Source: Calothrix brevissima NIES-22 (lineage in GTDB: Bacteria; Cyanobacteriota; Cyanobacteriia; Cyanobacteriales; Nostocaceae). Taken from it: DNA of 64,000 nt. A program made the position numbers and the translations under genes. The notes below the pieces were generated by a model, which did no database searches, was not told where the DNA came from, and saw only the letters and a program-made list of their open reading frames with translations. The stretch lies in the NCBI RefSeq assembly GCF_002367995.1, contig NZ_AP018207.1, forward strand, positions 5,569,963-5,633,962. Reading direction: 5' to 3'. This document shows, in pieces, positions 18,220 to 27,512 of the stretch. Each line of letters opens with the position of its first letter. Within the stretch, counting starts at the first letter, position 1.

Positions 18220-19104
18220 TTAACCGCCACCGCCACAACCACCGCCGCCGCAACCACCGCCACCACCGCAGCCACCGCCACCACCACCACAACCTCCGCC
18301 ACCGTAGTTACCACCGTCACCATTGCGATCGCTACTACTATTCTTTCCAAATACTAGTCCGTATAAAAATATAAGACCGAAAAATCCCCAAAATAGCCAC
18401 CAAAACCAACTACCAAAAGATGAAGAAGATCCTGAACTTTGCCATCGTGATGGTTTGATATCAGTACCTGTGCTGTCAAAGTTTACCTGAACGGCTAACT
18501 CTTCTCCTGGTTCGATGGCTGTTGATGCTATTGCTTCAATAGTTTTAGCATCAACTTTGCGAATATTAGCTTCTTTACCCCAGCTTTGGAAATCTTTAAT
18601 TTTAGTGGCGAATTGTTCTGGAAACTGAACTGTGACCTTTGCTTGTTTGACAGCAGCTTTTCGTTCATGAAATATAGCTTTCCAATACAATTGTGCATCA
18701 TCTACATTTACTTTTAATCCCCCAATCACACGATATTTCAACACAAACGTATGACTTTCTGGTGCTTTTAAAGAATGCTCCCAATTAATCCAGAATTTAT
18801 TATTTTCTATTTTTGTAGCACTGGGTAATATTTGCCCATTTTCTGATACTGTTACTTCCTGAATTTCGTCTATTTTATCTATAAGAATGTAGCGATAGCG
18901 TTGATTAGTGTAATCATCAGTAAAGGTATATTTTTGGGTTTCAGTAATTAACATGTCACCATTAGTTTGTACGACTACATCAACATTGATAAAGTCCCAA
19001 TAGAAAGGGACGGATTCAGCTTGGACATGATAAAGAGAAAATGTCAGGCTGAAAATTAGGGTTATTGAAAATAGAATTATTCTTTGAATTAGTTTGCTGT
19101 ACAT
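18220..19104 (-). CDS. DUF2207-domain membrane protein with Gly/Cys-rich tail
   Basis: A 294-residue protein with an N-terminal signal or anchor (residues 5-28), an extracytoplasmic DUF2207-type domain (about 30-215; FYWDFINVDVVVQTNGDMLI, YTFTDDYTNQRYRYI, QLYWKAIFHERKAAV), one strongly aromatic membrane helix (about 234-258, WFWWLFWGFFGLIFLYGLVF) and a cytosolic tail. The last ~27 residues are almost pure glycine with four evenly spaced cysteines (CGGGG units). Such SGGGG/CGGGG tails occur in DUF2207 and TPM-domain proteins; the function is unknown. The tail DNA (18220-18304) is GC-rich and repetitive, so copy number may vary. Last gene in a row of minus-strand genes, 277 bp from the LuxR regulator with a MITE-like element between. 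Confidence 0.8.
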   Translation of the reverse strand: MYSKLIQRIILFSITLIFSLTFSLYHVQAESVPFYWDFINVDVVVQTNGDMLITETQKYTFTDDYTNQRYRYILIDKIDEIQEVTVSENGQILPSATKIENNKFWINWEHSLKAPESHTFVLKYRVIGGLKVNVDDAQLYWKAIFHERKAAVKQAKVTVQFPEQFATKIKDFQSWGKEANIRKVDAKTIEAIASTAIEPGEELAVQVNFDSTGTDIKPSRWQSSGSSSSFGSWFWWLFWGFFGLIFLYGLVFGKNSSSDRNGDGGNYGGGGCGGGGGGCGGGGGCGGGGCGGGG

Positions 19105-19381: not shown

Positions 19382-20089
19382 TCAATCAATTAATCCTGCT
19401 GCTCTCGCTCGAATTTTCGTAAAAATTCTGATATTTATCCCTTGATTTCTTAATTCATGACAATCAATACCTAAAGCGGCTTGTAGTGTATCCCAATGTT
19501 TGCGTACAGTGCGTTCCGATACACAAATATGTGCAGCAATCGCTTTATCTTGTAATCCTTCATTAAAGGCTAGTCTGAGTAGTTTTAAGATTTCTGGTTT
19601 CAGGTTTAATTTCTCATATATATCTGGGTAAATATAGATATCTGTCATTTCTTTAATCCGAGTAAATACCTTTAATGCTCCATCTATTCTGGAGAGCATA
19701 TCTTGACTAGTAATATTTTTATCGGCAATGACAAATCCTCCTTGATGTTTATCAATTGCGGGTTTGATTTGCACTAGTCTTTTGACATAAGGACTTTGGA
19801 CAAATATATTCAATTTAGGATATTTTTGCATTACCTGTTGTAAAAAATCTAAACCTATCTGAGTTTGTGCTATTCCTCCTAATTTTTCTGGGAGGTAAAT
19901 ATCCATGATTATTAGATCGGGTTGCCAATTTGAGATTTTATGAATAGCGTCATATGCTGTTCGCGTACTGATAATATTTCCATCAGGATATTGAGTCTTT
20001 AGCAATTGTGCTGTTGCACTTAGAGCAATATCATAACTATCAACTAGCAAAATTTGCAGTGATACTTTCTTTGTTAAATATTGGATCAT
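19382..20089 (-). CDS. LuxR/NarL-type response regulator
   Basis: A 235-residue regulator with a receiver domain (about 10-135; ILLVDSYD, phosphoacceptor Asp63 in LIIMDIYLPE) and a C-terminal HTH (about 165-225; LRLAFNEGLQDKAIAAHICVSERTVRKHWDTL). In the acidic pocket the usual paired acids after ILLVD are read DS, so phosphorylation may be weaker or altered. It lies 225 bp after the CHAT-receptor gene on the same strand, which suggests it is the output regulator for, or is co-regulated with, that cluster. No histidine kinase is nearby. Start ATG 20089. Confidence 0.85.
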   Translation of the reverse strand: MIQYLTKKVSLQILLVDSYDIALSATAQLLKTQYPDGNIISTRTAYDAIHKISNWQPDLIIMDIYLPEKLGGIAQTQIGLDFLQQVMQKYPKLNIFVQSPYVKRLVQIKPAIDKHQGGFVIADKNITSQDMLSRIDGALKVFTRIKEMTDIYIYPDIYEKLNLKPEILKLLRLAFNEGLQDKAIAAHICVSERTVRKHWDTLQAALGIDCHELRNQGINIRIFTKIRARAAGLID

Positions 20090-20314
20090 AGGAATAAATT
20101 ATTCTGGAAAATAAACCATTAAGCGATCGCTTTTCACCCCGCTAAAGGAATATCTACAGTTCGAGTCATAATTTCCGCAATTGTTACAAAACTTTACACA
20201 GTCTGGTTTAGGGAATTCCAAATAAGAAAACATCACGATCGTTAACTTACTAAGCCCGCAACCTCGTAGGGGCGGGATCACCCCACCCATACCATCTGTC
20301 GCATTGTTTCTCAC

Positions 20315-23014
20315 CTATTTACAAGGAATATCTTTGGCGAAATCAAACTTCAATTGCTGATTATGCTCTTTAACAGTCAATATGGGTTGTGTGTTAATTC
20401 CTTTGCGATTTCCTGTGGCTTCAAAAATAATCTTCGAGCCTTTTAAGACATCACTAAATGCTGCTTTATCTGGGTTAATATCTGTTTCAAACAATTTCTG
20501 TTGAATTACTTTTCTATCAATAGGTTTACCTACATCTTGATTTTTAATAGCTTGCACAATTGCTTGCACAGCCTCGTATGATAAGGCGACTCTTCTATTT
20601 AAATCACCGCCCCAATATTCATTAATCTGTTTAGCGAAGTCTTGCGCACCACATTGTTTTGGATGCCATTCACTAGCTAAAAATAAGCTTTTTGTAGCTG
20701 TTTTGGCTTGATTAATAACGTCTTGAAGATAAAGAGTATTGGCTCCTAAAATAGGTTTTTTACCATTATTTAACTTGATAATATTAATCGCCTTTTGCAA
20801 TGTTGTATTATCATCAGTTCCGCCATCAGGTAATAGTACCAACGCATCTGCCTCTTGAACCTGGGAGGGAAGTTCATTGGTATTAAAGTTTGGATCGGAT
20901 AAGTCAACTTTAAGAAGTATTTTTCCTTGATATGATTGAATTACCTTCTCAAATTCGTCAGCTAAATCTTGGCTAAACCATTCTTTGCTATTATAGAAAA
21001 TGACGACTTTTGGCTGAGTTTTTAGTAAATCATTAACTAAATAATCTACCAAAGTTTTTGCTTCTTCTCGAGTAGATGCAGTTGTGCGGAAGAATACTTT
21101 ATTGGAACTAGCACAACTTTGTAAATTCACTACAGTGCTGGTGGGAGAAATTAAGACAAGCTCGTTTGGGGAATAAACTTTTAAAGCTTCACAGGTATTA
21201 GGTGAGGTGTAATGTCCTACTACAGCGAGAATTTTTTGATTTTGGGATAGTTGTGTAGCAATTTGTTTAGCTTGCTTTTGTTGATTGCGATCGTTAGCAA
21301 TGACAACTTGTAAATTTATCCCGTTTTTAACTGCGACATCTTGAGCTTGAGCAACGCCAAATAAGATATCTAATCCAGAATTAACATTTAAGGGTGCTGC
21401 TACAGCAATAGTGTAAATTGGAAAGACAGGATTTTGTTTATGTCGCGTATTTACGAAAGCATTGTTACGATAAATTAGCACTTCTGGATCTTGCAATGCG
21501 GCTAAAGCTGTTTGACGTAAACCTTGAACTTTTTTATTTTCTCCTGCTTGAAAGCGGAGACTATCAAAAGTTTTGTATGCACTCTCATAGTCACCTTGAG
21601 CAAATTCTTGAATTCCTTGCTCTTTTAATTTGAGATATGGCTGACTCAATTTGACTCTGCTATCAGCAATTGCTTTTTCACCCAAGCTAATAAAGTTGTC
21701 TATTTTAGATTGAATTGTTTCATCATTTATTGGGGGTTTACAGCTGGAAGAAAAAATTGAACAGCGATTAATATAAATTAAAGTGGCTGCAATAATTCCT
21801 ACGACAGCAGCCAAACCCAAGATTTTCTTACGCAGCAGGAAAGGTGACGGTGAAGGGGAAGGAGAGGGATCTTGTATCATTGGATGATTGTCTGAGGTTG
21901 GAGCAGGCCAAAAAAATTCAGGCTGATTGGGATTGAGACAAACGACAGGTAGCCAAGAAGCAGTGGGAAAAGTAGCTTTTAAAGTGTCTAGGCGATCGCG
22001 TGCTTCCCGCACTGCTAAACACAGGGGTATACCTTGCGAAAACTCTCGTAAAAAGTAGAGTAAAAATTGACCAGCAATTCTATCTGGTACGGGTTCCCGC
22101 ATCACTATTGAGGCTGGAACGTTTAACTGTGTCAAAAAATCTGCAATTCCTAAGCCATCACAGGAATTGAAAATTGCTAACTTTAAACCTTTACTTACGG
22201 ATTTCCTTAAGCTAGGAGTTAATGCTTCTAAAGGTAAAAATGTATCCTGACTAATTTGAATCTGTCCGCCTGTTTTTTGGCTGGAACTATGACCAGCAAA
22301 AAAGAGGATATCCCAAACATTTTCAAATAATAAATGAGCAATCTCTTCTTCTGTTGGCTCCACTTTCCAAGTAATTTGTGCTCCTCTTGCTTCCAAAATT
22401 TCGAGAGCGTTTCTATCGGCTTCTAGTTGTAAATTTCCCTGAGAACTGCCGAATATAGCTAAAACTTTGACTGGTGTTTTAAAGGTAGCTACTTGATAGT
22501 AAAATTTAGTAAACAAGGCAAATTCTGTGTTAGGGAGTTTAGAAAATAAATCCCAGATATGCCAAGGTAGTCTCCGTAAAACATCATTGTGCTGATGATT
22601 TGCAGTGTGACATCTAATGATAATGGGAACAGATTGATCGGCTTTGACTTTGATATTGGCTTGAATGCGATCGCGTAAACTTTTAAAGGCTGGATTTTGA
22701 AACCAGTTCTTACAGTAATTCTCTAGCTCTTCGGCTCTTTGTTTCCAACTATCTAAAGCTACGTTTGTTACCTGTCCAGGAACAGCTTGTAATGTCCGAC
22801 TATTCTCAAGTAATATATCTTGCCAATTTTCGTATAACTTTGGTATCGGCGACGCTGGGGGAATTTCAGTTAAATCATTGTGTTCATCAATAATTTTACC
22901 GTCTTCAAAAATTTGCACTCTGACACAAAAGCCGTCATCAAAGCTACCGCTACTAATCTCAAGTACAACAGCGACATTTTGAGGAGGTTGAAGACTAGAG
23001 GAGGATAGCACCAT
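20315..23014 (-). CDS. CHAT caspase-like protease fused through one membrane helix to a periplasmic ligand-binding (PBP1) domain
   Basis: An 899-residue predicted single-pass receptor protease. Residues 1-370 include a CHAT (caspase HetF associated with TPR) domain with the dyad His242 (DILFFAGHSSS) and Cys285 (LAIFNSCDG). A Ser-Pro linker (382-391, SPSPSPSP) is followed by one membrane helix (about 398-415). After it come a short helical TPR-like section (about 445-520) and a type-1 periplasmic binding fold (about 530-880) like branched-chain amino acid receptors (YTIAVAAPLNVNSG, ILAVVGHYTSPNTCEAL, VLISPTSTVV, VVIFYNSKEWFSQDLADEF). There is no N-terminal signal peptide, which places CHAT inside and the sensor outside. 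The gene follows a DUF1822 gene (80 bp) and a sigma-like gene. Inference: ligand binding controls the protease. Start ATG 23014. Confidence 0.85.
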   Translation of the reverse strand: MVLSSSSLQPPQNVAVVLEISSGSFDDGFCVRVQIFEDGKIIDEHNDLTEIPPASPIPKLYENWQDILLENSRTLQAVPGQVTNVALDSWKQRAEELENYCKNWFQNPAFKSLRDRIQANIKVKADQSVPIIIRCHTANHQHNDVLRRLPWHIWDLFSKLPNTEFALFTKFYYQVATFKTPVKVLAIFGSSQGNLQLEADRNALEILEARGAQITWKVEPTEEEIAHLLFENVWDILFFAGHSSSQKTGGQIQISQDTFLPLEALTPSLRKSVSKGLKLAIFNSCDGLGIADFLTQLNVPASIVMREPVPDRIAGQFLLYFLREFSQGIPLCLAVREARDRLDTLKATFPTASWLPVVCLNPNQPEFFWPAPTSDNHPMIQDPSPSPSPSPFLLRKKILGLAAVVGIIAATLIYINRCSIFSSSCKPPINDETIQSKIDNFISLGEKAIADSRVKLSQPYLKLKEQGIQEFAQGDYESAYKTFDSLRFQAGENKKVQGLRQTALAALQDPEVLIYRNNAFVNTRHKQNPVFPIYTIAVAAPLNVNSGLDILFGVAQAQDVAVKNGINLQVVIANDRNQQKQAKQIATQLSQNQKILAVVGHYTSPNTCEALKVYSPNELVLISPTSTVVNLQSCASSNKVFFRTTASTREEAKTLVDYLVNDLLKTQPKVVIFYNSKEWFSQDLADEFEKVIQSYQGKILLKVDLSDPNFNTNELPSQVQEADALVLLPDGGTDDNTTLQKAINIIKLNNGKKPILGANTLYLQDVINQAKTATKSLFLASEWHPKQCGAQDFAKQINEYWGGDLNRRVALSYEAVQAIVQAIKNQDVGKPIDRKVIQQKLFETDINPDKAAFSDVLKGSKIIFEATGNRKGINTQPILTVKEHNQQLKFDFAKDIPCK

Positions 23015-23094
23015 AAACGACCTAGCGAGGATATTGGGAAGTCAAGGATTTATTATTAGATAAGCATGATTCCGCAAAACTACGCAAGAGTTAG

Positions 23095-24201
23095 CTAAAT
23101 TAGAAAATCTTCGCTAAAGCTGGCATCATTGAGAACGACAAGGGCGCGGAAGCGATCGCCTGCATCGGCTGTAAACTTGAACTGAATATAATCATCTTTC
23201 TGGCGCGATTCTACAGAAAAAAACGACCTACCATTTTCATCTAACCCCATGAGCTTTAATCCTGATGGTAAATGAGACGATTTTTCTAAGGGATAAACTC
23301 GCAATAAAATTAACATTTTGCCATCTAATTTAGGCAAAATTCCTACCATTAATACTATGGAATATCCCAGGAGATAAATACCTAAATCTTTAGCATTAAT
23401 TACTGGACATGCTGGATTTTTTGGGTCTATTTCCCACAATAACTCAGCAGCTTGCCAGCGTATTTCATCATCTTCAGTTGTTTGGATAAGTTTTACTAAA
23501 GCCTCTTGAGGAGTGAGATATGAATCACAGTAACTTCCGCGATAAAGTTGTTCAACTCTTTGGCGAATTACATCGTTACCTCGATTTTGCAGTTGCTGTT
23601 GTGGCTGCTCAATTAATGTTTTCATGCTGCGAAAATTGCTGAGTAATTTTGGTGTAGGTTGCCAATCAGATTCAAATTTATGTTGTAGCCATTGTGTCAG
23701 TTTTACAATTGGTGATGCTGTTGGTTCTAAGGTTAAACGCTCTAGCAATAAATCCAATGATTGAAAATAGCTACGCGGTAGTTCTGTTACAGATATAGAT
23801 TCAACAAATCCTAAAATGTGCCCTTCTTGGTAAGGTTCATCGAGTTGCACGATCGCGTAACCAATGCGTTCTGTCCAAACTTCCTGTGGGATGTGACATT
23901 TGCGATCGCACTGACGCAAGCAACGACATTCTAAAAAGCCTTGCAAACTAGGAATATACAAGTCCGCAATATTTTCGATCATGCGTTCTAGGGGATTCCA
24001 GCTATGACTGAGTTCTAAATCGCTCTCGATACCCAATAGTTGTAAATAACGCCGCGTGACTAACACAGCCAAAGTATTGCGATAAACTTGTTGCGATCGC
24101 TCTTCAGTTAGTTGCTGTTGCGCAAATTTGTAAGCTTGTATTCGATCCGTTGCTGTAATTGCAATTGCAATCTGCGGAAATCTTTCTGCGGTATTCATCA
24201 T
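23095..24201 (-). CDS. DUF1822 family protein
   Basis: A 368-residue soluble cyanobacterial protein of the DUF1822 family, recognised by VYRNTLAVLVTRRYLQLLGIESDL, SWNPLERMIENIADLYI and the Cys cluster LECRCLRQCDRKC (three or four cysteines, possibly metal binding). The middle is helical and Gln-rich, and the C-terminus (about 270-368) is beta-rich with LRVYPLEKSSHLPSGLKLMGLDENG. Function unknown. In cyanobacteria this family is often next to a sigma-like gene and a CHAT or CHASE2 gene, as here: 86 bp after the sigma-like gene and 80 bp before the CHAT receptor. It is probably an adaptor or regulator in that unit. Start ATG 24201 (a second ATG follows at once). Confidence 0.83.
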   Translation of the reverse strand: MMNTAERFPQIAIAITATDRIQAYKFAQQQLTEERSQQVYRNTLAVLVTRRYLQLLGIESDLELSHSWNPLERMIENIADLYIPSLQGFLECRCLRQCDRKCHIPQEVWTERIGYAIVQLDEPYQEGHILGFVESISVTELPRSYFQSLDLLLERLTLEPTASPIVKLTQWLQHKFESDWQPTPKLLSNFRSMKTLIEQPQQQLQNRGNDVIRQRVEQLYRGSYCDSYLTPQEALVKLIQTTEDDEIRWQAAELLWEIDPKNPACPVINAKDLGIYLLGYSIVLMVGILPKLDGKMLILLRVYPLEKSSHLPSGLKLMGLDENGRSFFSVESRQKDDYIQFKFTADAGDRFRALVVLNDASFSEDFLI

Positions 24202-24258
24202 AATTTGTCATTTGTCATTGGTCAGATACGCGATTCATCGCGTCTGTACAATTGTCTC

Positions 24259-24295
24259 CCTAGCCCCTAGCCCCTAGTCCCTAGCCCCTAGTCCA
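24259..24295. repeat. CTAGCCC heptamer array overlapping the end of the sigma-like gene
   Basis: About five tandem copies of CTAGCCC/CTAGTCC. The in-frame TAG stop of the sigma-like gene (24288-24290) is one of the CTA units read on the minus strand. Confidence 0.85.
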
Positions 24296-25019
24296 ACAAC
24301 TGTTTTAAATGGGAGAAACATCTTGTGCGACAAAATCTCCTCACTGCTGATGGTTCGATTGCATATTTTTGGGCGATCGCATTCCAAGAGAAATTTCCGG
24401 AATCATGTAACACCTTTAAAATATGAATCAACAAAATTTGACAGTTAACCTGGGGATAACTCTGCATTCGACAATTTTTGAAGGCTTGGGGATGATTTTG
24501 CACTAAATCTAGCCATTCTTGGATAGTTTCATCCCAGCGATCCGGATCTGGCGCTGGCGGTTCCATCCACTGATGATTTTCTGCATCTGTAACAGCATTT
24601 AACCGTCTTCTTTCTTCATCGGCTTTTTGGCGAATTACATCATGAATTACCCAGCGCAGTTTTTGGTTAAACCAGGTGACAAAACTAGCCGTTGTTGGCT
24701 GATACTGTCCCAGATTTTCCATAAACCATACCCAAGTTCTTGATAAAGCTTCACTATATACATCTGGTGATATTCTTGCGCCGTTCCAAATTAATCGGGA
24801 AGACTTCATCATCGCGATAATGAAATCCTTCACCCGCTCTGGATTCTCGGCTTGAGATAATTGTGCAAATAACCATTGACGCGCCGGAATATCATTCATA
24901 ATTTCCTGGAGCGTTTTTTGTTGCTGTAATAACCTGCTTCTGGACATTGAGTTATTTAAAGCAGCTTCCAGCAAGCCAATCAAAGGAGATTCCTTCAAGT
25001 CATTAGACATAAAAGTCAT
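24288..25019 (-). CDS. Sigma-70-like transcription factor (group of the DUF1822/CHAT clusters)
   Basis: A 243-residue protein with two sigma-like parts. Region-2-like at about 70-135 (DVYSEALSRTWVWFMENLGQY, SFVTWFNQKLRWVIHDVIRQ), comparable with the -10 recognition and core-binding helices of ECF sigma factors. A region-4-like HTH at about 205-240 (FSWNAIAQKYAIEPSAVRRFCRTRC) would contact the -35 element. The linker (135-200) is longer than in ordinary ECF sigmas. It is first of three closely spaced minus-strand genes (sigma-like, DUF1822, CHAT receptor). Promoter recognition is inferred and it could act as a non-sigma DNA-binding protein. Start ATG 25019, or ATG 25010 (MSNDLKE). Confidence 0.8.
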   Translation of the reverse strand: MTFMSNDLKESPLIGLLEAALNNSMSRSRLLQQQKTLQEIMNDIPARQWLFAQLSQAENPERVKDFIIAMMKSSRLIWNGARISPDVYSEALSRTWVWFMENLGQYQPTTASFVTWFNQKLRWVIHDVIRQKADEERRRLNAVTDAENHQWMEPPAPDPDRWDETIQEWLDLVQNHPQAFKNCRMQSYPQVNCQILLIHILKVLHDSGNFSWNAIAQKYAIEPSAVRRFCRTRCFSHLKQLLD

Positions 25020-25451
25020 CCAGACCCAATTAATATAGGTTGGAATATCATGACACTTGCGAACCTCCTTTCACCTGTTTGATAGCTTATCGGCGTTACA
25101 GGTGGGAATAATTCAAATTATTTACAAAACTTTATAAAAAGGCAGCGCTTTGGCTATGCTTGGCGACTGAGCAGATGGCAGAAGGATCAGAATTCTCTAC
25201 GCAGTTCATCAAGACTACTAGCGATTTTCAGATCAGTTGCTCATCGCACAATCCCGCCGTCACCCTATAAGGGTGCGGCTAATTGAACATGAGCTTACCT
25301 TAAGTGGGCTAAAGAATTCAGCCCACAAAGGTGGGCTTTGTAGCGATAGCCCCAGGCTTCTAGCCTGCGGGCGGTATATCGGGTAAGTCAGCAATTTCTA
25401 TGAGTATTGAGAAATCATACCAATGCCCAATGCCCAATGCCCAACACCCCA
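25020..25451. other. Intergenic region with palindromic repeats between kinase and sigma-like genes
   Basis: 432 bp without ORF. 25255-25380 contains dispersed-repeat material: AGTGGGCTAAAGAATTCAGCCCAC is an inverted repeat (GTGGGCT/AGCCCAC), followed by GCGATAGCCCCAGGCTTCTAGCCTGC with GGCT/AGCC symmetry. 25421-25450 is a CCCAATG array reaching the kinase stop. The rest (25020-25250) should contain the promoter of the sigma-like gene. Confidence 0.5.
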
Positions 25452-27227
25452 TTACTGCTGAAGTTGTTGAATAAAGGATTGGGCTAGCTTGGCACAATTA
25501 GTCAGTCCTTGTTGACTACAAAGTGTATCAGCTTTCTGAAAATCTTGAATGGCCTCTTCCCTAGAGCCAAGTGCAGCGTAAACCCGGCCGCGATTAAAGT
25601 AAGCTTGAGCAAAATCTTTTTTATGTTCAATTGCTTGAGTAAAATCGTCAATCGCTCCTTGTAATTTATTTTGGGCGGCTAAAGCGTTACCTCGGCCATC
25701 ATAGGCGATCGCGGCGATATCTGGTTTATTAGTGGTTAATTGTAGAGCTTGGTTATAATCAGCGATCGCTTTATTGTAATCTTGAAATTGTTCAATATAT
25801 AAAACACCCCGGTTAATATAAGCTTGAGGATCGTTGAGATTCAAGTCTATTAACTTAGTAAAATCTGCCAATGCTCCTTCTTTATTTTTTAAATTACGCC
25901 GTGCATTAGCTCGATTTAAGTAAGCATCACCATACATAGAATTAAGCTTAATTGCTTGCGTACATTCCTCCTCAGCTTTTTGGGGTTGTTGTAGCAGTAA
26001 AAGTGCAGCACAGTGGCGACTATAAGCTTCAACGTAATTTTTATTTAATTCAATCGCCTTGCTTGCATCTTCCGCCGCACGCTGAAAATTACTCGCCAGA
26101 AAGTGAGCATTTGCTCGTTCATAATATGCTTCCGCATACTTAGGATTAAGCTTGATAGCTTGAGTGAATTCTTTAATCGCTTCTGACTTATCTTTTTTCT
26201 CTAATTTTTCTCGTCCCCGTTCATAAAATGCTAATGCTTGGGTTATCGGTAGCTGACGATATACAGCAAAACCAATTCCTGCAATTGCAATTACTCCGAT
26301 TACCCCAATAACAATAGATGGTTTGACGGGAATTTTTAGGGGTATTGGATTATTTTGAGTGATTTTTGTCGGCAATGGTGAGAAACCTGGAGAATAAGCC
26401 GCGATTTTACTCAAATCTGCAAGTACTTCACTAGCCGCTTGGTAACGCTTGCGCCAATCAGCCACAACCATTTTATCAATCACATCTGCCAAAGTCGGAC
26501 TAACTTTAACTTGGTTGCGCCAAACCATTTCACCAGGGGTAGGACTGCTGTTACCACGCAGCTTAGTTAAATCATGGGCTGGTAAACCCAACAGTGCTTG
26601 AATCGCAATCATTCCCAAAGCATAAATATCACTGTTGAATTGGGGAAAACCATGAAATTGTTCCATTGGCATATAAGCCGCAGTTCCAACAGCTGCTGTG
26701 GGTGTTAATTGTCCATGCGGAATTTGCGCGTTGATTTCTTTAACTGCACCAAAATCAATTAATACCAGTTTTCCATCAGTAGAGCGGCGCATTAAATTAG
26801 ATGGTTTAATATCGCGGTGAATCACTCCTTGACTATGTACAAATACTAAAATGGTTAAAACTTCTGTTAATAGCTGAGTAACTTGCTGTTCGTTCCAAGG
26901 TTGATGCGGTTGTATTTCTTGGTGTAAAGGATAACCATCAATTAATTGCTGCGCCAAGTAAAATTCTTTATCTTGCTCAAATTCTGCTAATAAAGTGGGT
27001 ATTTGGTCATGTCTACCCAATTTTTCTAATATTTCTGCTTCTTTTTTAAATAATCGGCGCGCTGCACTTAAGGCTAAAGGGTCTTGGCTGGAGTAGCTCA
27101 GCTGCTTAACCACGCATTGCGGATGAGTTGGACGCTTGAGATCTTTTGCCAAAAAGGTTTTTCCAAAAGCCCCTCCGCCCAAGACTTGAACTATTTCATA
27201 ACGTCCGTCCAAGAGTTGACCGATCAT
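25452..27227 (-). CDS. Ser/Thr protein kinase with membrane helix and TPR repeats
   Basis: A eukaryotic-type (Hanks) kinase of 591 residues from ATG 27227. The kinase domain (about 8-275) has the Gly-rich loop VLGGGAFGKTF, VVKQL with the ATP lysine, HRDIKPSN (137-144), DFGAVKE (158-164) and a GTAAYMPMEQ activation segment. One membrane helix follows at about 303-323, then a C-terminal array of six to seven TPR repeats (about 330-585; AIKLNPKYAEAYYERANAHF and similar). The TPR part would lie outside the cytoplasm, as in other cyanobacterial kinases of this layout. A GTG at 27263 would add 12 residues. It is upstream of the sigma-DUF1822-CHAT cluster on the same strand, 432 bp away; a functional link is possible but not shown. 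Confidence 0.92.
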   Translation of the reverse strand: MIGQLLDGRYEIVQVLGGGAFGKTFLAKDLKRPTHPQCVVKQLSYSSQDPLALSAARRLFKKEAEILEKLGRHDQIPTLLAEFEQDKEFYLAQQLIDGYPLHQEIQPHQPWNEQQVTQLLTEVLTILVFVHSQGVIHRDIKPSNLMRRSTDGKLVLIDFGAVKEINAQIPHGQLTPTAAVGTAAYMPMEQFHGFPQFNSDIYALGMIAIQALLGLPAHDLTKLRGNSSPTPGEMVWRNQVKVSPTLADVIDKMVVADWRKRYQAASEVLADLSKIAAYSPGFSPLPTKITQNNPIPLKIPVKPSIVIGVIGVIAIAGIGFAVYRQLPITQALAFYERGREKLEKKDKSEAIKEFTQAIKLNPKYAEAYYERANAHFLASNFQRAAEDASKAIELNKNYVEAYSRHCAALLLLQQPQKAEEECTQAIKLNSMYGDAYLNRANARRNLKNKEGALADFTKLIDLNLNDPQAYINRGVLYIEQFQDYNKAIADYNQALQLTTNKPDIAAIAYDGRGNALAAQNKLQGAIDDFTQAIEHKKDFAQAYFNRGRVYAALGSREEAIQDFQKADTLCSQQGLTNCAKLAQSFIQQLQQ

Positions 27228-27512
27228 GGTATTTTTGCTGCTACTGTTAGCTAATTTTAACACTGAAGATAATATTTCGTACTGAAATAAAAATCAGCGA
27301 TCGCGATCGCATTCATCTTATTTTTCCCAAGATTAAGTGGGAAAATAAGATATTTGGACTATCTTATCCGTAATGTGTTAAAAGCTGCCACAAATTCAGT
27401 ATTTGACGACAGCACAACATTTGACAGCTTCATCTCCCCGTGTATCTTCTGAGACTGGGTTTGCTGCTGAAAGTTTGTAAATAATCAATAAATAAATAAT
27501 GAATTAAGGTAA

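Follow-up and report, generated by a model that had tools for sequence, protein, structure and literature searches.

A putative transmembrane receptor-protease linked to sigma-like and DUF1822 genes in cyanobacteria

Can a cyanobacterial membrane receptor pass an outside signal to transcription through a caspase-like protease of its own? The question is raised by three consecutive minus-strand genes in the window, the whole 64-kb stretch of Calothrix brevissima NIES-22 DNA analysed here. They encode an ECF-like sigma factor (24288..25019; 243 aa, with putative regions 2 and 4), a DUF1822 protein (23095..24201; 368 aa) and a protein with a CHAT domain, a transmembrane helix and a PBP1 domain (CHAT-TM-PBP1; 20315..23014; 899 aa). 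Their intergenic gaps of 86 and 80 bp agree with a preliminary description of the locus. Here, we describe the domains, the conserved dyad, the transmembrane segment, the gene trio, the swapping of sensors and a shared promoter-like element. Our best explanation, tentative and falling a little short of an even chance, is that a one-protein transmembrane receptor-protease with a ligand-gated CHAT domain cuts DUF1822, an anti-sigma, and would thereby free the ECF-like sigma.

A receiver-HTH response regulator gene follows on the same strand (19382..20089), and its receiver scores 29.6 bits with PF00072, just below the cut-off of 30.2. It is accessory and not conserved with the trio. Further matches to the response-regulator model lie a few genes from the DUF1822/CHAT loci L115 (145 aa) and L158 (240 aa), the L and G numbers being our labels for the loci and genomes compared. 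A membrane protein of DUF2207 type, whose C-terminal tail is rich in Gly and Cys, is encoded at 18220-19104 (minus strand). Just 5′ of the sigma gene is the gene for a Ser/Thr protein kinase with TPR repeats (25452-27263, minus strand), and no kinase-size ORF is directly 5′ of sigma in L103, L094, L095 and L104. An Rfam scan of the 64-kb window gave no match.

The CHAT domain (21971..22423, minus strand; residues 198-348) scores 46.6 bits with PF12770, above its cut-off. The catalytic dyad, proposed earlier as His242 (22289-22291) and Cys285 (22160-22162), is present in 105 of the 108 aligned rows, and the other three are fragments not covering it. By this score and the His/Cys dyad, the window protein belongs to the CHAT protease family and its proteolytic activity is predicted. 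The first 370 residues recur in 108 ORFs with differing C-termini and include a conserved region N-terminal to CHAT, at the place where the published class treated below has an alpha+beta domain, EACC2. The HetF model NF045509 matches the CHAT region weakly, with 22.8 bits against a cut-off of 1200.

The PBP1 domain (Peripla_BP_6; 20498..21325, minus strand; residues 564-839) scores 85.6 bits with PF13458 against a cut-off of 31.7. Its pocket motif aligns with that of LivJ. Of 34 CHAT-PBP1 rows, 33 have the pocket serine S604 and 22 have T627, and both residues align with LivJ positions that presumably contact the amino-acid backbone. The pocket motif suggests that the ligand may be amino-acid-like.

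A single transmembrane helix is placed at the hydrophobic peak of residues 398-416 (21767..21823, minus strand). A hydrophobic segment above threshold is C-terminal to CHAT in 41 of 45 proteins, and only L106, L113, L117 and one member of the L121 pair lack it. More Lys and Arg lie on the CHAT side than on the PBP1 side in 31 of the 45, the reverse holds for 3 and 11 are ties, which amounts to a positive-inside bias. As the hydrophobic peak of L106 and L113 is elsewhere, leaving them out gives 30, 3 and 10 of 43.

The C-terminal sensor is variable. Nine further CHAT proteins of the same type were scanned in the own genome, and eight of them carry at the C-terminus CHASE2, an extracellular small-molecule domain, whereas the window protein carries PBP1. 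The ninth gives weak TPR matches only.

Moreover, the four kinds of protein that contain TM-PBP1, namely CHAT, Ser/Thr kinase, AAA and stand-alone, have exchanged this module on several occasions. The Ser/Thr kinase of L069 (Pkinase, 103 bits) has the same tether and PBP1, with 43% identity over residues 418-881, and other kinase-PBP1 proteins are found by Pfam in L184 and by kinase motifs only in L070, L088, L183 and L187. They share the PBP1 module and the membrane-side tether with the window protein, but their output is a kinase and that of the window is CHAT. The other PBP1 relatives outside CHAT are AAA_35 fusions (L185, L186) and stand-alone proteins. A tree of 69 PBP1 domains needs 12 changes among the four kinds, and its well-supported branches alone impose at least 6 for CHAT. 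In this tree, a group with 100/100 support unites the window clade, which has six CHAT proteins, with three kinase fusions and two further CHAT proteins.

The receptor is repeatedly joined to different cytoplasmic enzymes and therefore supports sensing outside and output inside. The arrangement put forward in the preliminary description, with the sensor outside and the protease inside, is thus backed by the domain order, the hydrophobic segment after CHAT, the positive-inside bias and the occurrence of TM-PBP1 on Ser/Thr kinases.

Two kinds of additional genes accompany some of these loci. A stand-alone PBP1 gene is located one or two genes 5′ of sigma in the same direction in L096 (11286-12668), L110 (283-1683) and L129 (285-1706), and in L096 its product is a close relative of the CHAT protein's PBP1 part. 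The CHASE2 versions in L051-L054 and L056-L058 have a gene of about 230-310 aa after CHAT, and the two scanned match DUF928, above the cut-off in L051 and below it in L056.

How constant is the trio? We selected relatives by two CHAT motifs, not by neighbours, and the sample consists of those nearest the window. A contig profile scan built on six aligned CHAT-PBP1 proteins yielded at least 567 stretches, at least 558 of them relatives, and we kept the best 80. Adding the window itself and stretches from its own genome and from related ones gives 41 distinct CHAT+PBP1 loci, with near copies among them such as L118/L133 and L134/L135/L139.

A DUF1822 gene is within 1 kb in 30 of the 36 CHAT-PBP1 loci having at least 2.5 kb upstream, and a sigma-model match is beside it as well in 26 of the 36. 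The co-occurrence of CHAT-TM-PBP1, DUF1822 and sigma, first suggested by the window alone, is therefore a conserved neighbourhood, and because of this conservation we take the sigma and DUF1822 genes to be linked to CHAT-PBP1. In two of the six remaining loci, DUF1822 is farther off, at 1.4 and 2.8 kb. None was found near CHAT-PBP1 in the other four (L109, L113, L120, L126), which counts against our best explanation. Where the same N-terminal CHAT type has another C-terminus, DUF1822 is within 1 kb in 32 of the 47 loci with room, and the sigma model, which was built from the PBP1 type, matches next to DUF1822 in 7 of the 47.

The sigma and DUF1822 genes are tightly coupled. The gap between them has a median of 14 bp, they overlap in 8 of the 29 loci carrying all three genes, and in L097, L118 and L133 the pair is together on the strand opposite to CHAT. 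The tree distances correlate with r of 0.76 for sigma and DUF1822, 0.71 for sigma and CHAT, and 0.78 for DUF1822 and CHAT. With the PBP part, r is 0.65 for CHAT, 0.59 for sigma and 0.50 for DUF1822. None of these values is equalled in 2000 shuffles, and shared species descent contributes to all of them.

The own genome has 11 DUF1822 genes, and 9 of them, the window one included, adjoin a CHAT gene of the window's N-terminal type. The other two (L050, L055) are without an adjacent CHAT gene and count against our best explanation as well. L050 and L055 have a neighbour of 390 or 468 aa, the size of the paralogue sigma proteins, and the 468-aa one gives no sigma match.

The sigma identity of the window gene is suggested by the predicted fold, as its sequence score with TIGR02937 is 22.9 bits, below the curated cut-off of 42.9, and this is counted against our best explanation. 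Longer proteins at paralogue loci score above the cut-off, with 109.4 in L051, 63.1 in L053 and 43.6 in L054. Among eight upstream proteins of relatives scanned, three (L055, L056, L059) give no sigma match, which is also counted against it. With the type III-E CRISPR sigma model NF041236, the window protein scores 18.3 bits against a cut-off of 100. Within the sigma group, this model is the second commonest NCBIfam match, with 5 of 36 members at E ≤ 0.01 and far below its cut-off.

The DUF1822 protein is modelled (pLDDT 89.5) with an alpha/beta N-domain, a helical insert and an Ig-like C-terminal beta sandwich. Residues 181-210 are weakly predicted, as for a flexible linker, and the helical insert is missing from shorter DUF1822 members. 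Such a two-domain protein with a flexible linker would suit, rather than prove, a protease substrate. A Cys cluster, pointed out earlier in this protein, turned out not to be conserved. By sequence or fold, no relation to Csx30 or a known anti-sigma is found among the matches listed, and this is counted against our best explanation.

The upstream regions of the sigma genes were compared as well. One clear block 5′ of sigma is common to six loci, the window, L103, L094, L095, L104 and L105. It reads TAAAGTTTTGTAAA-N27-CCGATA, with some letters altered in L104 and L105, and is located in the window at 25088..25134 on the minus strand (copy 1). A near copy with one mismatch, TAAAGTTTTGTAAC-N26-TAGATA, is 5′ of the response regulator gene at 20151..20196 on the same strand (copy 2). 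In L094, L095, L103 and L104, too, a copy with N26 stands behind the CHAT gene, and L128 has one there with a single mismatch.

The pattern TAAAGTTNNGTAAM-N26/27-CNGATA occurs exactly at nine places in seven of 98 related genomes, and the reversed control matches once. The receptor-protease system accounts for five of the nine, in G000, G008 and G009, which are the genomes where close orthologues were seen, with 39 of the 98 searched for the protein. The other four have no sigma, DUF1822, CHAT, PBP1 or regulator match in the 2.6-3.0 kb around them and are counted against our best explanation. When one mismatch is tolerated, 40 CHAT-PBP1 loci, the window excluded, contain 12 matches, and each of 12 shuffled patterns gives 0 or 1. 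At the same stringency, the own genome has the two window copies and one other place only, while with two mismatches the counts are about the control level (7 against 9 and 13 against 8).

The genes behind the second copy differ among the loci. In the window it is followed by the response regulator and in L103 by an orthologue of the window DUF2207 protein. L094 has a small membrane protein there, with a vWA/solute-binding protein next to it, L104 has two small proteins before the same vWA protein, and in L095 a 235-aa protein, then the regulator and further small genes, precede a protein resembling the vWA one. This pair of the small membrane protein and the vWA/solute-binding protein (L094 10055-12520, L104 8567-10972, L095 1403-3811), assigned by Pfam in L094 and L104 and by resemblance in L095, takes the place of the DUF2207-type protein of the window and L103. 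Several genes behind the second copy look membrane- or envelope-related. Two readings of the element offer themselves: the system's sigma could recognise it in front of its operon and of the genes that follow, or its first half could be a site for RpaB (HLR1), with an ordinary −10 behind it.

Are such systems already known? The general kind of system has been predicted before. Burroughs et al. (2021, eLife; PMC8195603) describe EACC2-caspase proteins with variable sensors including CHASE2. Like the window protein, they have a constant N-terminus with a caspase-like domain and a variable C-terminal sensor, possibly extracellular. As in the window, ECF sigma and DUF1822 are adjacent, in most of the TRADD-N-independent neighbourhoods. 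PBP1, the sensor of the window, is not named in the class text, which speaks of CHASE2 and "several small-molecule-binding domains". The text also calls DUF1822 a TPR protein, in contrast to the alpha/beta, helical-insert and Ig-like model obtained here, and proposes auto-peptidase action where our best explanation has DUF1822 cleavage. Earlier, a 2010 survey (PMC2853523) reported a caspase-like/ANF-receptor fusion, called metacaspase, in Nostoc punctiforme PCC 73102 and a CHASE2 fusion too. The former resembles the window protein in its caspase-like domain fused to a PBP1/ANF-type receptor, and its neighbours are not discussed in the survey's text on it.

Three studied systems resemble parts of the proposal. 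In type III-E CRISPR, Csx30 binds and inhibits CASP-sigma and the CHAT protease Csx29 cuts Csx30 (PMC10028731). As in the trio, the genes of an ECF sigma and of a CHAT protease stand together with that of a middle protein; however, Csx29 acts in complex with the RNA-guided Cas7-11, whereas a membrane receptor is the expected trigger in the window. Likewise, the Lon protease CalpL cuts the anti-sigma CalpT and frees the ECF sigma CalpS (PMC11417357), again a ligand-triggered protease, an anti-sigma and an ECF sigma, although CalpL has a SAVED domain and senses cA4 inside the cell. Anabaena HetF is reported to cleave PatU3 (PMC12288457) and so is, like the proposal, a cyanobacterial protease cutting a regulatory protein. 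It differs by its role in cell division and heterocyst formation, and the available text of that paper mentions no PBP1 or sigma partner.

In the mechanism that we propose, DUF1822 at rest would act as an anti-sigma holding the adjacent ECF-like sigma. A small molecule would be bound by the periplasmic PBP1, and the signal would cross the membrane through one transmembrane helix, as the reuse of the module suggests, and switch on the cytoplasmic CHAT cysteine protease. This would cut DUF1822, by precedent most likely its dedicated substrate, and the freed sigma would start transcription from the element, both of its own operon and of the genes after it, some of which look envelope-related. The release of sigma by DUF1822 cleavage is plausible by the analogy of Csx29/Csx30 and CalpL/T/S. 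We prefer this explanation because the trio is conserved, sigma and DUF1822 are coupled, the dyad and S604 are kept, the precedents have the same three roles and the element is shared.

Alternatively, CHAT may process itself and DUF1822 may be a positive adaptor or scaffold bringing sigma, so that the sigma output arises without an inhibitor. A sigma gene tightly paired with a second gene often makes a sigma/anti-sigma pair, and both studied protease/sigma trios cut the middle protein, so we regard this alternative as unlikely, even though no anti-sigma relative of DUF1822 appears among the matches listed. It is near the published class proposal, where a stimulus induces autopeptidase activation and the last step goes via the coupled ECF sigma (PMC8195603). 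The same authors group the class with the apoptosis- or immunity-type systems of multicellular bacteria, and the own genome (G000) has a very large caspase-like repertoire with 78 CHAT matches, some being pieces of one gene. Thus, CHAT might cut many proteins and halt or kill the cell to counter invaders, with sigma and DUF1822 regulating the operon only. This appears quite improbable, as the variable domains are small-molecule receptors (PBP1, CHASE2), the TM-PBP1 part is common to Ser/Thr kinases and envelope-like genes are behind copy 2.

Another alternative takes up the LuxR-type regulator, which the preliminary description had counted as a core part, and joins all four genes into one two-component-like pathway with the receptor signaling to the regulator. 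Copy 2 precedes the regulator gene in the window and a weak copy with four mismatches does so in G009, the sole relative with a close regulator beside the system. However, the 89% identical system of Tolypothrix sp. FACHB-123 is without an adjacent regulator, other relatives of the regulator sit elsewhere in the genomes and the gene set has no histidine kinase. The core role thus loses its support and this pathway is highly improbable. As to the element alone, and compatibly with any of these readings, it may be the target of an activator, probably RpaB at HLR1, before the −10 of an ordinary sigma, which would make the expression of the system light- or redox-controlled. The element spacing is unlike a normal −35/−10 pair and the first half is RpaB-site-like, both counted against the sigma reading. 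With the HLR1 core consensus taken from PMC11633204, its reverse complement fits copy 2 at 20198..20183, and the core matches also at the L095, L105 and L106 sites. Since the GATA box lies at a fixed distance of 26-27 bp, the HLR1 site would come to stand near −40 to −55. Yet copy 1 is an imperfect core, and a general RpaB site is not expected to hold an exact two-part form at one locus, where five of the nine matches are, so this activator site is quite possible, if somewhat under an even chance.

In the literature searched, we found no experiment on a system of the window type, no paper pairing DUF1822 with CHAT as a whole word and none joining the CHAT domain, cyanobacteria and CHASE2. One paper retrieved with CHAT domain, cyanobacteria, caspase and periplasmic deals, in its available text, with other systems (PMC10907252). 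The class is known, but the version with a PBP1 receptor and the apparent promoter element are new details, and in the literature searched we did not come across the Craspase-type sigma/anti-sigma link, the repeated receptor swapping or the element.

If our best explanation is true, it explains the role of many cyanobacterial sigma/DUF1822/CHAT clusters, nine DUF1822-CHAT pairs in the own genome among them, and gives DUF1822 a role. Through its caspase-like protease, a transmembrane receptor would then act on transcription and not on cell death, in a directly testable case. With the exchangeable receptor module and the promoter-like element at hand, the ligand and the regulon come within reach. 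More broadly, and so far doubtfully, there may be a general cyanobacterial non-CRISPR pathway of receptor, caspase-like protease, anti-sigma and sigma. In it, exchangeable outside receptors (PBP1, CHASE2) would drive CHAT to cut DUF1822, which would be a new anti-sigma family, and each freed sigma would read its own element, here the two-part pattern, before its operon and neighbouring genes. Beside the two-component systems and regulated intramembrane proteolysis, such a pathway would give bacteria a further widespread route from outside signals to transcription, and it would be related to the Craspase logic as a cousin with a membrane receptor.
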